Positions 1-5,765 of a stretch of DNA of 11,308 nt are shown in pieces. The first letter of the stretch is position 1. Every line of letters begins with the position of its first letter. The notes beneath the pieces were generated by a model. It was not told the origin of the DNA and did not search any database. It saw nothing but the letters and a program-made list of their open reading frames with translations. Both the position numbers and the translations under genes were made by a program. The stretch is from Prevotella sp. (GTDB taxonomy: Bacteria > Bacteroidota > Bacteroidia > Bacteroidales > Bacteroidaceae), in contig JAFXZF010000022.1 in NCBI GenBank assembly GCA_017541365.1, positions 1-11,308 on the forward strand, read 5' to 3'.

Positions 1-498
1 GATATTGCCTTGCCTTGCTGCTACTATATGGTCTTCAACAGTGGAGAGAATCTCGACATCGGGCGACAGTGCCTTGTGGATATAGGGAGCACGGATAAAA
101 GTCATGGGGAAGTCGGGGGCTATGCCCTTGACTTCTCCTTTTGCATTGAAGCTGCCCAACTGCCTGCCGTAGGCGTTGCGGCGCACATCGATGTCCATGG
201 CACCCAAAGCTCCTGTGCGTGGCTTGCCGTCCTCCTGCTTTGCCAAAAGTATAAGTCCGGCGCAGGTGGCGAAAACGGGCAGACCGCCGAGGATGTCATG
301 ACGGATGGGCTCCATAAGTCCCAACTCACGCATTAGCTTTGCCTGCACGGTGCTCTCACCGCCTGGCAGTATAAGACCGTCCTTAGACTGTTGCCAGTCG
401 CTGAACTGTCTTATCTCGAAACTCTCTACACCGAGCCGGTGAAGCATCTGCTCATGTTCTATGAATGCCCCTTGCAGGGCAAGTACTGCTATCCTCAT
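1..498 (-). CDS. pdxT: PdxT, glutaminase subunit of pyridoxal 5'-phosphate synthase (partial)
   Basis: PdxT releases ammonia from glutamine and channels it to PdxS for direct synthesis of pyridoxal 5'-phosphate in the cytosol. The reading frame begins at ATG (498-496), directly after the pdxS stop codon with no spacer, and stays open to the window edge, giving 166 residues. The N-terminus MRIAVLALQGAFIEH, the oxyanion motif LPGGEST (residues 44-50) and the nucleophile motif FATCAGLI with Cys79 are typical of the class I amidotransferase fold of PdxT. The visible part ends in DHIVAARQGNI. The family is about 190 residues, so roughly 25 residues including the His and Glu of the catalytic triad lie outside the window. 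The zero spacing to pdxS suggests translational coupling, which fits the stoichiometric PdxS-PdxT complex. Identification is firm. Confidence 0.96.
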   Translation of the reverse strand, partial: MRIAVLALQGAFIEHEQMLHRLGVESFEIRQFSDWQQSKDGLILPGGESTVQAKLMRELGLMEPIRHDILGGLPVFATCAGLILLAKQEDGKPRTGALGAMDIDVRRNAYGRQLGSFNAKGEVKGIAPDFPMTFIRAPYIHKALSPDVEILSTVEDHIVAARQGNI

Positions 499-1374
499 CT
501 ATTTTCCGCGCTCTGCCATGAGCAGTTCTATTTCCTGTTCGTTGATACCTACCATAGCCTCACCGAGGTCCGCAGAGAGTTCTGCCAGTAGCTTGGCATC
601 CTTGTAGTTGGTGACGGCCTGCACTATAGCAGCAGCACGTTTAGCAGGATTTCCGCTCTTGAATATTCCACTGCCAACGAACACTCCCTCAGCACCAAGT
701 TGCATCATTAGGGCTGCATCGGCAGGAGTTGCCACACCGCCTGCGGCAAAGTTGACTACGGGAAGTTTACCGTTTTCGTGAACATAGCGCACAAGGTCGA
801 GTGGTGCCTGCAACTGCTTTGCCGCCTCAAAGAGTTCATCTTCGCTCATTGAGACAAGACGACGTATCTCGCTCTGCATCATGCGCATGTGGCTCACAGC
901 CTGCACCACGTCACCTGTGCCCGGCTCACCCTTTGTCCTTATCATCGTCGCACCCTCGGCAATACGACGAAGAGCCTCGCCGAGATTTTTTGCACCGCAA
1001 ACGAAGGGCACGTCAAATTGCATCTTGTCGATATGGTAGATATTGTCAGCAGGCGACAGAACCTCACTCTCGTCGATATAGTCTATCTCTATTGCCTGCA
1101 ATATCTGAGCTTCAGCAATATGTCCAATACGGCACTTTGCCATAACAGGAATACTCACCGCCTCCTGAATACCGCGTATCATCTTAGGGTCACTCATTCT
1201 TGACACTCCCCCTGCGGCACGTATGTCAGCAGGGATGCGTTCCAATGCCATCACCGCGCAGGCACCAGCAGCCTCAGCTATCTTTGCCTGTTCGGGCGTG
1301 GTAACGTCCATGATCACTCCGCCTTTCAGCATCTGTGCCAACTGGCGGTTAAGTTGTTGTCTGTCTTTGTTCAT
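499..1374 (-). CDS. pdxS: PdxS, synthase subunit of pyridoxal 5'-phosphate synthase
   Basis: PdxS condenses ribose 5-phosphate (or ribulose 5-phosphate), glyceraldehyde 3-phosphate and ammonia from PdxT into pyridoxal 5'-phosphate. The 291-residue product is full length for this TIM-barrel family. Key residues are in place: Asp23 in [13 protein letters not shown], the Schiff-base lysine Lys80 in [10 protein letters not shown], and the second lysine Lys148 in [11 protein letters not shown]. The phosphate-binding segments [15 protein letters not shown] and [11 protein letters not shown] and the C-terminal MAERGK are also typical. The ATG at 1374-1372 lies inside the end of the upstream ThiD-AraC gene (26-nt overlap), and the stop codon abuts the pdxT start, so the three genes form one tight operon. 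No Shine-Dalgarno sequence is visible; the region before the start is A/T rich, as is usual in Bacteroidota. Confidence 0.98.
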
Positions 1375-2275
1375 TTGTGTTTGTATTATTGTATTTATAT
1401 TCTGTAGGCGAGATGCCCTTATGCTTTTTGAAGAAACGCGAGAGGTGTGCCTGCGACGAGAAGCCGAGACGCTGTGCTATATCCTTTAGGGGATAGTTGG
1501 TAGCAGTAAGCATAGTGGCAATCTCGCTGACTATGCGCTCGTCAATGATATACTTAGGCGAACGGCCGGCTATGTTTCGCGTAACCTGAGCAAGGTAGCG
1601 TGGACTCACATTGAGTTGCTCGGCATAAAATGATACATCAGCATAGTGGCTGTAGTATCTATCTACCTCGTCAAGGAAACGGTTGTAGAGTTCCTCGCTG
1701 CGGCTGTTGCCCTCGGCGTATGCAGCAGGCAACTGCTTGAGAAAGGTGCGTGCATGGAGCATAGCATCGGCTATCTCCTCGTCTTGGCTGAGATAGAATG
1801 CCACTGCCGATGACAGTTGGTTGGCATGACCGTGACGGCGTGATGCCTCGGGCAGGTCGGAGGGCTCAAGCACCACAGTGCATAGAGGTATGAGCAACCG
1901 CTGGATTGCATCATATACATCGGGTGACACGAGTTTGTCGCCATGCGTGGAACGCAGCACGGGGGCATAGATGATGTGACGCGGCTTGTAATGGCTGAGC
2001 ACCTCTGCCAAGGTCTCTACGACATCGATACGTCGCAGCAGACCAATCTTGACAACCTGCGGCTGTAAGTCATTGATGATAGCCTCCACCTGCTGTCGGA
2101 CCACGGCGGCAGGGAGATCATAGAATTCTTGAATGCCGAGCGTGTTCTGCACCGTTATTGACGTGACCGCCGATGCTGCTATACCACCCAACTCACCTAT
2201 GAGACGTATGTCTGCCTGCACACCTGAACCTCCGGTACCGTCGCTACCTGTTATCGTAAGTATTGTATTGCGCAT
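1349..2275 (-). CDS. Fusion of degenerate ThiD/PdxK-like kinase domain and AraC-type DNA-binding domain; putative pdxST regulator
   Basis: The 308-residue protein has two parts. Residues 1-185 resemble the ThiD (hydroxymethylpyrimidine/pyridoxine kinase) fold: [16 protein letters not shown] (8-22), the substrate-side motif TVQNTLG with Gln43 (41-47), VVKIGLL (74-80) and THGDKLV (110-116). Normal ThiD is about 260-270 residues. Here LEPSDLPEA (136-144, the usual PNLPEAE) runs straight into [18 protein letters not shown], where ThiD has HGTGCTLSSAIA. About 60-70 residues and the anion-hole/catalytic GTGC are therefore missing. Residues 199-295 are a standard AraC double helix-turn-helix ([20 protein letters not shown] and [20 protein letters not shown]). 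It is the first gene of the pdx operon and overlaps pdxS by 26 nt. I infer a kinase-derived vitamer sensor controlling pdxST rather than an active kinase. Domain calls are firm; ligand and target are inferred. Confidence 0.88.
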
Positions 2276-2305
2276 GTTACTTTACGTTTGCGGATGCAAA
2301 GTAAC
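2276..2305. promoter_or_regulatory. Inverted repeat GTTACTTT-N14-AAAGTAAC overlapping the pdx promoter; candidate operator
   Basis: The arms GTTACTTT (2276-2283) and AAAGTAAC (2298-2305) are perfect inverted copies. The right-hand arm covers the predicted -7 box, and the left-hand arm abuts the ATG of the ThiD-AraC gene. A second, slightly offset short palindrome TTTGC-GGAT-GCAAA lies inside (2287-2300). If the promoter call is right, one arm is not in the RNA, so the repeat would act at the DNA level, for example as a binding site for the AraC-type protein encoded just downstream. Regulator binding is inferred. Confidence 0.45.
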
Positions 2306-2327: not shown

Positions 2328-2366
2328 GATTATTTCCTTTTATGTAAAAAGAATATGCAATTTTGC

Positions 2367-2406
2367 AAAACAGCCGAGATGCATCAGTCATTTGCATCTC
2401 GGCTGT
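2367..2406 (-). terminator. Intrinsic terminator after lepB
   Basis: A perfect 14-bp inverted repeat (2370-2383 with 2393-2406, arms built on CAGCCGAGATGCA) closes a 9-nt loop. It begins 32 nt downstream of the lepB stop codon. On the minus strand the stem is followed by TTTTGC. The + side also carries TCTTTT, so it could work in both directions, but no + strand gene reaches it. It separates the lepB transcript from the pdx operon. Confidence 0.85.
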
Positions 2407-2437: not shown

Positions 2438-3880
2438 TTACTTTATATTGTCAACCATACGGAAGAGGCGGTTCCACCTCACTCCGTTGAAGCCACGACG
2501 GTCAGGGTCGCTTGACCACCAAATGAAGATGGGTTTGCCTACGATGTGGTCTTCCGGCACAAATCCCCAATAGCGTGAGTCGGCACTATTGTGACGGTTG
2601 TCACCCATCATCCAGTAGTAGTCCATCTTGAATGTATATTCCTTAGCCACCTTGCCATTGATGAGTATCTTGCCATCGCGAGTCACCTCAAGGTCGTTGC
2701 CTTCATACACTCGGATAGGACGCTCGTAGATGGGGAGATTCTCCAGCGTCAGCTTCACGCTCTTACCCTTCTGAGGTATCCACACTGGACCATAGTTGTC
2801 ACGAGTCCAGCCATAACGGGCATTGAGCGGATATATATCGCCAACGGTCTGTTCGAGGTTTGGCTTGATGGATGCCACGAGGTCCTTACGCTTGCTGAGC
2901 TCAGCCACAGCACGCTTGGTGAGCGGCATATAGCCAAATTGGTTGAGCTGCGTGATATCCTCCTGTGATATACCGAGTTCCTTCATGAGGTCATCAGGCA
3001 ACATGTTATTGAGCTTCACGAAGTAGGTATATTGCACGTTGTCTGGCTCCTTGTTTGCCTTACCGTCGATATACACTATGTGGTTCTTTATCTGGAGGGT
3101 TTGCCCTGGCAGTCCTACACAACGCTTGACGTAGTTCTCACGACGGTCAACAGGACGTGAGATGAGTTTGCCATACTCCTGTGGGTCGGACAAGATATAC
3201 TGTCTGCCTGCCTGATAAGCCAGTTCGTAGTAGTGACGCAGGTCCATGGGTTTGAGACTGTCGAGCTGCACATTGATGCCTTGCTGCATAAGTATCTGCT
3301 GACCGTAGCCATAGCACATCTGATAGTAGTCCTGGGGTTGCCAACGTGGCTCGCTCACCACGGTATCACCTGCTGGGTAATTGAACACCACGATATCATT
3401 TAGCTGTATCTTTCCCAAGCCAGGCGCACGGCGGTAGTCCCATTGCGGCCATTCTATGTACGACTTGATATTGCCTACTGGCAACGTATGCTGCGTAAGC
3501 GGCATGGTGAGAGGGGTCTGCGGAATGCGAGGTCCGTAGCTCACCTTGCTTACGAAGAGGTAGTCGCCGGTGAGTAGTGACTTCTCCAAGGAACTTGACG
3601 GTATGACGTAGTTCTGGAAGAAGAACAGGTTGATGAAATAAACCGCCACGAGGGCGAATACCAGGGCATCGACCCACGACATAAGCATGCGTGGAAAACT
3701 GTCGAGGTCTTTCCACCAGTCCCAACGTATCTTCTTTGAAATGTAGGCGTCATAGATGAACGGAACAACAATAAGTCCGAGCCAGCTCTTGAGCCACCAC
3801 AGGAATGCGAGGTATAGCACGAGGACGATGACGAACTTCGTCCACTGCACCTTCATATTTGGTTGATTCTTCTTACGCAT
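2438..3880 (-). CDS. lepB: Signal peptidase I (leader peptidase)
   Basis: This inner-membrane Ser/Lys protease removes signal peptides from exported proteins. The 480-residue product has hydrophobic N-terminal segments at about 15-43 and a transmembrane segment at about 70-88 (WVDALVFALVAVYFINLFFF) before the catalytic domain. The nucleophile motif VIPSSSLEKSLLTGD places the catalytic Ser at residue 97. NDIVVFNYPAGD (161-172) is box C. YVKRCVGLPGQ carries the general-base Lys252. MMGDNRHNSADSRYWGFVP (about 424-442) is box E. The Ser-Lys distance is about 155 residues, against 55 in E. coli LepB, because of inserts in the periplasmic domain; long forms are usual in Bacteroidota. The ATG lies 3 nt after the dapB stop, so the two are co-transcribed and a strong terminator follows. 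Confidence 0.97.
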   Translation of the reverse strand: MRKKNQPNMKVQWTKFVIVLVLYLAFLWWLKSWLGLIVVPFIYDAYISKKIRWDWWKDLDSFPRMLMSWVDALVFALVAVYFINLFFFQNYVIPSSSLEKSLLTGDYLFVSKVSYGPRIPQTPLTMPLTQHTLPVGNIKSYIEWPQWDYRRAPGLGKIQLNDIVVFNYPAGDTVVSEPRWQPQDYYQMCYGYGQQILMQQGINVQLDSLKPMDLRHYYELAYQAGRQYILSDPQEYGKLISRPVDRRENYVKRCVGLPGQTLQIKNHIVYIDGKANKEPDNVQYTYFVKLNNMLPDDLMKELGISQEDITQLNQFGYMPLTKRAVAELSKRKDLVASIKPNLEQTVGDIYPLNARYGWTRDNYGPVWIPQKGKSVKLTLENLPIYERPIRVYEGNDLEVTRDGKILINGKVAKEYTFKMDYYWMMGDNRHNSADSRYWGFVPEDHIVGKPIFIWWSSDPDRRGFNGVRWNRLFRMVDNIK

Positions 3881-3883
3881 CTT

Positions 3884-4600
3884 TTAGAACTTAAACATAT
3901 CGTCAATAGTCAGCAAGCCTTCGTGCTCCGCAGTGTATTCGGCAGCGAGTACGGCACCGAGTGCAAAGCCCTGACGTGAGTGAGCATCGTGAGTGATGGT
4001 TATCATATCAGCAGGCGAGTCGTAACTGATGCTATGGATGCCTGGCACCTCGCCACGACGCACATCGTCAATGCGCAACACATCGGGAGATGTCTCATGA
4101 AGTCCCCACTTGCTCTTGCGGTCGAGACGGTCAACAATTTGCTCGGCAAGGGTGATGGCGGTGCCTGACGGTGCATCAAGTTTGTGCACATGGTGGGTCT
4201 CCACCATATTGACATCATACTGTGGAAACTGGTTCATTATCTTTGCCAGATACTTGTTGACAGCAGAGAAGATTGCCACGCCCACTGAGAAGTTCGATGC
4301 CCAGAAGAGAGTCTTGCCCTCGTTGGCACAGGCATTGCGCACCTCGTCACCATGGTCTTTGAGCCATGCCGTAGTACCGCTGACAACCTTCACACCAGCC
4401 TTCCATGCCTTGAGGTAGTTGTCGTAAGCCACCTTGGGGTTGGTAAACTCTATTGCAACGTCAGCACTGGCAAAGGCTGCAGACTCAAAGTCCTGCTGGT
4501 TGTCAATGTCAATGATACTTACTATCTCGTGACCACGAGAAAGGGCAATCTGCTCTATCATTTTGCCCATCTTACCATATCCTATTAATGCTATCTTCAT
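3884..4600 (-). CDS. dapB: 4-hydroxy-tetrahydrodipicolinate reductase
   Basis: DapB reduces hydroxy-tetrahydrodipicolinate to tetrahydrodipicolinate with NAD(P)H, on the way to meso-diaminopimelate and lysine. The 238-residue product starts with the Rossmann motif IALIGYGKMGKMIE (3-16). It contains the VSGTTAW segment and the catalytic signature ETHHVHKLDAPSGTA, with His136 as proton donor and Lys140. Near the end are GEVPGIHSISYDSPADMITITHDAHSR and GFALGAV, as in the family. It is somewhat shorter than E. coli DapB (273), as is common in Bacteroidota. lepB follows after 3 nt; rnc lies upstream across a 73-bp spacer without a clear terminator or promoter, so dapB may belong to the fabF-rnc transcript. 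Confidence 0.97.
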   Translation of the reverse strand: MKIALIGYGKMGKMIEQIALSRGHEIVSIIDIDNQQDFESAAFASADVAIEFTNPKVAYDNYLKAWKAGVKVVSGTTAWLKDHGDEVRNACANEGKTLFWASNFSVGVAIFSAVNKYLAKIMNQFPQYDVNMVETHHVHKLDAPSGTAITLAEQIVDRLDRKSKWGLHETSPDVLRIDDVRRGEVPGIHSISYDSPADMITITHDAHSRQGFALGAVLAAEYTAEHEGLLTIDDMFKF

Positions 4601-4686: not shown

Positions 4687-5765
4687 GAATAAGCTTCTGC
4701 CTCGGCCTCGGCTATGATGTCCTCGCGAGACTTCCGTTTCATTCTTACGTCAACATCCTCAAGGGTGAGATCATCAACTTCACGCTCTGCTTCACTCGTC
4801 ACTTCATCATTATTGACATCGTTGATATCCTTTACAATCACGAGGTCATCACTGGGTGATTCTACATCAGGTGCCACGCTGACAGGCATCTCCTCCATCT
4901 GTGTGCGAGCGGTCTTTGCTGCAAAGATTCTGTCGATAAACTTACCATCGGAACGTAGTTTCTTGAGTGTCATCTCGCAAGCGTGCTGTTGGCTCTCTTT
5001 CTTAGAAAATCCTTCTGCAGAACATCCGTCGATATCCTCCAATACCACGGTATAGACAAACTTTGGTGAGCCATTCTCATCCTGCGACTGATCATCTAAG
5101 CGGAAGCTTAGATTGATGCGGTTCTTCTGCGACCATTCCAGTATCTTTGACTTGAAGTTGACCTCCGTATAAGCTATCCTATCAACATTCATGTACTTGC
5201 CCATGACACGCTTCTCCCAAAACTGACGACATGCGTCATAGCCACGATCGAGATACACAGCTCCCACGAGAGCCTCAAAAGCGTTGCCGCCGATATAGCT
5301 GTTATGGCTCACGTTGCGTCCACTCGCCATTATGAGTTTTGATAGTCCCATCTGCTGCGCCAGCTTGCCGAGTGCATCACGCTGCACCATCTTGGAACGT
5401 GCATTAGTAAGAAATCCCTCTGACTTACCGGGGAAATATCTGTAGGCTACAGCGCCCACGACAGCATCAAGTATGGCATCGCCAAGAAACTCCAGACGCT
5501 CGTTATTGAGAGGGCGACCCAATTTCTTGCCTTTCCTTGCGTCCGCTTTCCCTCTGTCTTTTCCCTTGGCATTCTTAACCATTGACTTAGCCAGTACCTT
5601 CATCTCTTTCTCAGTTGCCCGATGTCCAAGGCTCTTGTGCATAAGAGCTATCTTGTAGAAGGTGATGTTGCGTGGAAAGAATCCCAGTATATTATATAAA
5701 GCAAGATAAAGCTCCTTCTCCTTACGGAAAGGGAGCTTTATCCTATCTATTATATTACTCAGCAT
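4674..5765 (-). CDS. rnc: Ribonuclease III
   Basis: RNase III cleaves double-stranded RNA during rRNA processing and mRNA turnover. I chose the ATG at 5765 (363 residues, MLSNIIDRIKLPFRKEKELY), which overlaps the fabF end by 11 nt; an in-frame ATG at 5807 would run 53 nt into fabF. The signature NERLEFLGDAILD (88-100) carries the Glu89, Glu92 and Asp96 equivalents of E. coli E38, E41 and D45. GGNAFEALVGAVYLD has Glu164 (E. coli E117) but Asn161 where E. coli has D114. A dsRNA-binding domain covers about 204-270. Two additions stand out: a Lys/Arg-rich insert at about 60-84 just before the signature, and a tail of about 80 residues, largely acidic. A long hairpin lies in the first codons. The acpP-fabF-rnc order is common in bacteria. 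Confidence 0.96.
   Translation of the reverse strand: MLSNIIDRIKLPFRKEKELYLALYNILGFFPRNITFYKIALMHKSLGHRATEKEMKVLAKSMVKNAKGKDRGKADARKGKKLGRPLNNERLEFLGDAILDAVVGAVAYRYFPGKSEGFLTNARSKMVQRDALGKLAQQMGLSKLIMASGRNVSHNSYIGGNAFEALVGAVYLDRGYDACRQFWEKRVMGKYMNVDRIAYTEVNFKSKILEWSQKNRINLSFRLDDQSQDENGSPKFVYTVVLEDIDGCSAEGFSKKESQQHACEMTLKKLRSDGKFIDRIFAAKTARTQMEEMPVSVAPDVESPSDDLVIVKDINDVNNDEVTSEAEREVDDLTLEDVDVRMKRKSREDIIAEAEAEAYSVRS
5702..5745 (-). promoter_or_regulatory. Long hairpin at the start of the rnc coding region
   Basis: On the minus strand an 11-bp perfect inverted repeat, GATAAAGCTCC (5742-5732) with GGAGCTTTATC (5715-5705), continues inward. There is one C-A mismatch, then five more pairs including one G-U, to a GTAA loop (5725-5722), a GNRA-type tetraloop. 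Three weaker pairs extend it outward, giving about 20 positions of near-continuous duplex at codons 7-22 of rnc. That length suits an RNase III substrate. Structure is seen; function is inferred. Confidence 0.5.

Follow-up and report, generated by a model that had tools for sequence, protein, structure and literature searches.

Enzyme domains of cofactor pathways are joined to DNA-binding domains in the archaeal ThiN-HTH thiamine regulator (HTH, helix-turn-helix), in RbkR, in BirA and in NadR. AraC and RhaS have a C-terminal double-HTH domain, a repeat spacing of 21 bp, which is the half-site spacing of araI, and a site next to the -33/-35 element, and their usual sensor domain is cupin-like. 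For vitamin B6, the part of PMC6593275 covered here names PdxR as a regulator; according to the portion of the MocR survey covered (PMC5320631), its apo form activates pdxST with pyridoxal 5'-phosphate (PLP) as anti-activator, and PdxR is found chiefly among Proteobacteria, Firmicutes and Actinobacteria, and PdxW/PdxQ, less often, in Bacteroidetes. Here we analyse a stretch of 11,308 nucleotides from Prevotella sp. (GenBank assembly GCA_017541365.1, contig JAFXZF010000022.1; the whole stretch is called the window), in which the pdxST operon is headed by a gene encoding a ThiD/PdxK-like domain fused to an AraC-type DNA-binding domain. Sequence and analogy make it moderately probable that the whole is a ThiD-derived pseudokinase regulator of pdxST with a B6 vitamer as ligand: a B6-sensing switch is likely because the fusion gene travels with B6 synthesis genes and with a conserved promoter motif.

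Like PdxR, the fusion sets an enzyme-derived sensor domain and an HTH beside pdxST, and switching by a B6 vitamer is predicted for it; unlike PdxR, which pairs a GntR-type HTH with an aminotransferase-like domain, it pairs AraC with a ThiD-like domain. The two have no Pfam family in common, and neither PdxR/MocR domain is among the Pfam matches of the fusion up to E 1. From ThiN-HTH, RbkR, BirA and NadR it differs in enzyme family, in HTH family and in the vitamin concerned. With AraC and RhaS it shares the double-HTH domain, and a modest 21-bp repeat signal in a predicted site by the -33/-35 element may be a further parallel, whereas its putative sensor is a relic of a ThiD-type kinase. Residues 1-195 resemble ThiD, the kinase of hydroxymethylpyrimidine (HMP) and its phosphate (HMP-P), and the pyridoxal kinase ThiD2/PdxK in sequence, predicted fold and substrate-side motifs, but the catalytic cysteine and about 45-70 residues are lost, an AraC domain is added and the TIGR00097 cut-off is missed. 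The locus is laid out as follows, all on the minus strand.

1349..2275, minus strand: pseudokinase-AraC fusion gene, 308 residues (open reading frame with ATG start, Pfam, relatives)
1721..2275, minus strand: ThiD/PdxK-like domain, residues about 1-185 (Pfam; VIA-align ranges 1-185 to 1-195)
1832..1867, minus strand: residues 137-148, that is 11 residues and the H of HGHAN, replacing 56-81 residues of ThiD (alignment)
1394..1627, minus strand: AraC-type DNA-binding domain (HTH_18), residues 217-294 (Pfam)
499..1374, minus strand: pdxS, PLP synthase subunit (504 bits to NF003215)
1..498, minus strand: pdxT, incomplete at the window edge (reading frame; named by sequence and position)
2334..2363, minus strand: predicted operator, conserved 30-bp motif, score 24.4 (motif scan)
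2297..2304, minus strand: TTACTTTG, promoter-like box (sequence, alignment)
2370..2406, minus strand: inverted repeat ACAGCCGAGATGCA / TGCATCTCGGCTGT, then TTTT (sequence); probable terminator of the upstream gene, which would set that gene apart from the operon

Phos_pyr_kin matches the protein at 136.6 bits against a Pfam cut-off of 27, the best stretch covering residues 12-136 and model positions 1-124 of 246; HTH_18 matches at 73.8 bits (residues 217-294; cut-off 33.6) and HTH_AraC at 51.9 bits (cut-off 26.6). Pfam thus finds the C-terminal double-HTH domain of the AraC family, and the other half combines Phos_pyr_kin homology with the predicted ribokinase-like fold of the ThiD superfamily. 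TIGR00097, the model of the ThiD HMP/HMP-P kinase, is matched at 122.5 bits, short of its curated cut-off of 204.95. The fusion gene and pdxS overlap by 26 nt, and the pdxT ATG stands directly after the pdxS stop, with pdxT running out of the window. The original prediction, made from sequence, of a ThiD/PdxK-like half fused to an AraC domain, with this same overlap, is confirmed by Pfam and the reading-frame coordinates. Relatives at 59-91% identity to the window fusion were collected in 80 loci (the best 80 of 137 relatives from one contig scan, some of them near-copies), which rules out an assembly artefact and, because of that identity range, excludes a chance origin. An ordinary ThiD was rejected on the missed TIGR00097 cut-off and because 10 of the 12 genomes checked, each with one full-length fusion, also show a separate ThiD-type match (the rows listed for G008 and G010 contain none). 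A known RNA switch was rejected too, as an Rfam scan of the window at gathering thresholds gave no match.

The neighbour of the fusion gene is pdxS, found in 77 of the 80 loci and in 73 directly downstream on the same strand, with a gap of -7 to 143 nt; in L042, L050, L052 and L053 it lies 0.7-3.3 kb away, with reverse-strand genes in between in L042. Beside the fusion it was not found in L016 or L029, and in L041 the contig stops before any pdxS. Among 399 genomes drawn from the family, pdxS was found at E 1e-60 in 86, and 74 of these carry the fusion, 56 by profile A1 and 18 long forms by profile A3. At 1e-45 profile A1 missed the long forms, and A3 recovered them when applied to the remaining 30 pdxS genomes; A1 also admitted 13 genomes judged ThiD-only, which were dropped (five of these were fetched and proved to be plain ThiD). 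Profile A3 alone, over 339 family genomes, found the fusion in 62 of 72 with pdxS and in 0 of 267 without. Five to six candidates per genome were scored in the family, order and phylum samples. The order sample gave 7 matches in 393 genomes (the centre genome G002, five other fusions and the ThiD-only G071), and in the phylum sample, where 117 of 395 genomes were listed at 1e-45, only G002 was matched across both domains; relatives were surveyed within the genome sets drawn here. The original prediction would have failed had homologues lain mostly next to unrelated genes; they adjoin pdxS, and the co-occurrence, together with a deletion shared among homologues and a motif that stays with pdxS, supports its view of a ThiD-derived regulator of pdxST.

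Some loci are arranged differently. In L016 and L029 the fusion gene has moved beside a tRNA-Leu gene (near 4830-4992), away from pdxS. L009 and L077 both come from RUG13499 (G596), one assembly with two fusions and two pdxS genes, possibly a mixed bin. In L168 (G657) a free-standing AraC domain of 111 residues (3792-4127, plus strand; HTH_18 76 bits) lies just upstream of pdxS, about 7 kb from a whole fusion; it may be a split or second copy.

The structure model of the fusion is confident and aligns with ThiD and with PLP- or pyridoxal-bound relatives, which is consistent with a B6 vitamer as the ligand sensed, a reading by analogy that we consider fairly likely. The chief alternative, which we hold to be unlikely, is a regulator of the same pdxST genes that responds to a pyrimidine (HMP, HMP-P) or to some other ring compound, tying B6 synthesis to thiamine metabolism. 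By sequence and fold the closest solved relatives are HMP-P kinases, and the nearly invariant Gln43, an HMP-side residue of ThiD, speaks for a pyrimidine ligand and against the B6 reading; on the other side, the same-fold relatives 4ywr and 4c5l bind PLP or pyridoxal, the fusion gene keeps company with pdxS, and the neighbouring genes inspected included no thiamine gene.

The kinase half has decayed on one side only. In the window protein the substrate-side motifs, including Gln43 and KIGLL, are retained and HGHAN stands in place of HGTGC, both as originally predicted. Between residues 136 and 148 there are 11 residues against 56-81 in 8 ThiD proteins of the same group and therefore about 45-70 are missing, in agreement with the 60-70 or so first thought to be gone after LPEA. 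Across 75 aligned fusions (selected so as to include the window protein, with 40 non-redundant short forms and 34 others), G10, S11, D12, G18, D22 and G78 are invariant and Gln43 nearly so, while the segment before the HGTGC position has 67-79 residues in 14, 20-45 in 13 and 7-13 in 48; the homologues share the deletion, which forms the lower extreme of a continuum of segment lengths. The cysteine of HGTGC, present in 8/8 ThiDs, occurs in none of the 75, a count that leaves out the NGTGD proteins of L195 and L196; nine of the 14 long forms have HGVGG or HGIGG, and long forms retain most of the Phos_pyr_kin model. Probably, then, the cysteine was lost before the ATP-side segment, because full-length fused forms already lack it, and the residues predict a loss of kinase activity. 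In a tree of fusions and ThiD built without the variable-segment columns, the branch parting the two has a Shimodaira-Hasegawa-like approximate likelihood ratio (SH-aLRT) support of 100, an 11-row long-form group branches off at the unresolved first fork of the fusions, and the starred branches imply that the short form arose at least twice; by this tree the segment is shortened in two or more lineages. The strong loss of the kinase segment would suit a ligand-free regulator of pdxST, a kinase relic that dimerises, binds a partner such as PdxT or activates constitutively, yet the 75 fusions have lost the ATP side and kept the substrate-side residues invariant, and we regard this explanation as quite unlikely.

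The ThiD-type proteins fetched from L195 (G012) and L196 (G011) end in NGTGD, not HGTGC, and lack the ThiD glutamine; perhaps they use another substrate.

Upstream of the fusion lies a 30-bp motif, AAAcTGcAtTTTcTTTTATCATAAnnGGAA (34 bits), learned for the short forms from 63 non-redundant of 78 upstream regions (in L055 and L078 the fusion start is not clear). In the window (2363-2334, minus strand) it scores 24.4, all other matches at most -4.7, and it ends 29 bp before TTACTTTG (2304-2297), a spacing kept within 1-2 bases in the alignment; the Bacteroidetes -7 consensus is TAnnTTTG. The best plus-strand match falls upstream of the fusion in 58 of 78 loci (L016 and L029 left out) and upstream of pdxS in the other 20, in all of which fusion and pdxS are at least 98 nt apart and the DNA between was not used in training; two of the 23 loci with a gap of this size, L042 and L053, carry the motif at both genes. 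Scores at these sites run from 8.0 to 31.2, against 6.9 for the best match elsewhere. Where fusion and pdxS are apart in the genome (the Xylanibacter brevis type), the motif sits upstream of pdxS: in L016 and L029 the fusion has no site beside tRNA-Leu, and pdxS on another contig carries it at 134 and 131 nt (25.4 and 28.8).

With 150 candidates scored per genome, a sequence-only model of 32 sites ranks this promoter first in 13 of 13 genomes, including four that supplied training rows; 12 reach 43-72 bits and G012 only 26.5, within the background of other genomes. Of 17 long-form genomes, 16 have a related motif upstream of pdxS (an in-sample count; L162 has no site, at -2.2), and in four of these 16 the fusion lies 4-6 kb off or on another contig. 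That matrix was trained on 17 of the 18 long-form genomes (the omitted L168 scores 7.0) and gave 15.0-30.9 in all six leave-one-out trials, against shuffled maxima of up to 7.0. None of the 12 fusion-less pdxS genomes has the motif (at most -1.4 by the short-form and -0.1 by the long-form matrix); two of them are sister genomes that fall among the long-form genomes in the pdxS tree, which looks like one joint loss of fusion and motif at most, in genomes that may be incomplete. Linkage to pdxST and a conserved operator-like motif, the marks of PLP-responsive pdxST regulators, are thus both present, with exceptions among divergent loci, and the sequences make it very likely that the fusion regulates pdxST through this motif.

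Several observations weigh against this interpretation. Related genomes inflate all the counts; L072, with a gap of 112 nt, has the motif before the fusion only; and the pdxS-side sites of L042, L050, L052 and L053 score just 8.0, slightly above the off-target best. Among 28 divergent loci, just 10 give a short-form matrix score of 8 or more (L122 reaches 13.9, but in sequence beyond the part scanned for this test), and about nine of the 28 have no clear site by either matrix, some others being similar by eye. Four divergent genomes have fusion and pdxS on different contigs; a clear site, of the long-form-like kind, is present in L182 (15.3), and the other three lack a clear one. In divergent loci the operators may have drifted, or the protein may act on other targets. 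The direct-repeat signal at 21 bp is the highest of 23 offsets, but modest (z 3.3, with 2.4 at 22 and 2.8 at 27), and the motif also shows inverted symmetry.

That the motif is a conserved promoter or the site of another regulator, not bound by the fusion, strikes us as improbable: it could simply follow pdxS ancestry, and divergent fusions match it only in part, but it also stands before the fusion gene in 58 loci and is missing from all 12 fusion-less pdxS genomes, the two nested sisters included. That the protein is still a working kinase of HMP-P or pyridoxal is barely credible, for although the long forms keep most of the Phos_pyr_kin model, the HGTGC cysteine is gone in 75/75, the window form has lost the segment, TIGR00097 falls short and a separate ThiD-type match is present in 10 of the 12 genomes checked.

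The P. communis genome (G002) holds a second full operator-like site (L213, 1501-1575; 49.3 bits), found in this one of 13 genomes about 25 nt before a short-chain dehydrogenase gene (765-1475, minus strand; PF00106, 142 bits) that is divergent from thyA-folA-like genes and possibly encodes a B6-vitamer reductase.

For the B6-responsive pseudokinase regulator we propose that the AraC domain would bind the 30-bp motif, where the predicted site ends just before the expected -33 element, which suggests a class II activator, and that the former substrate pocket would bind pyridoxal, pyridoxine or PLP. Without vitamer the protein would activate its own operon and pdxST; with vitamer activation would stop, as reported for PdxR. 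An apo-state activator is moderately likely by analogy, since apo PdxR activates pdxST and PLP anti-activates.

Our literature search, with subscription papers outside its coverage, found no paper on a ThiD-like/AraC fusion, and the parts of the literature covered describe no pdxST regulator for Bacteroidales. The covered part of PMC9997740 has no mention of AraC, fused, fusion or Bacteroid, nor that of PMC5320631 of AraC.

Tentatively, we speculate that PLP synthesis came under an independent control when an AraC domain captured ThiD in a single event in Prevotella-type Bacteroidales, and that the kinase then lost its cysteine and later, in at least two lineages, its ATP half. What remained would be a minimal B6 sensor; its co-changing operator would stay with pdxS even in trans, and in at least one species its regulon would include a short-chain dehydrogenase, perhaps a B6-vitamer reductase. 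The family offers a graded natural series of a kinase turning into a sensor, its segment shrinking from 79 to 7 residues, and the predicted operator is ready for reporter use alongside it. The carriers are Prevotella-type bacteria, abundant in gut and rumen, and the switch would bear on vitamin sharing, because pdxST lets these abundant bacteria make B6.
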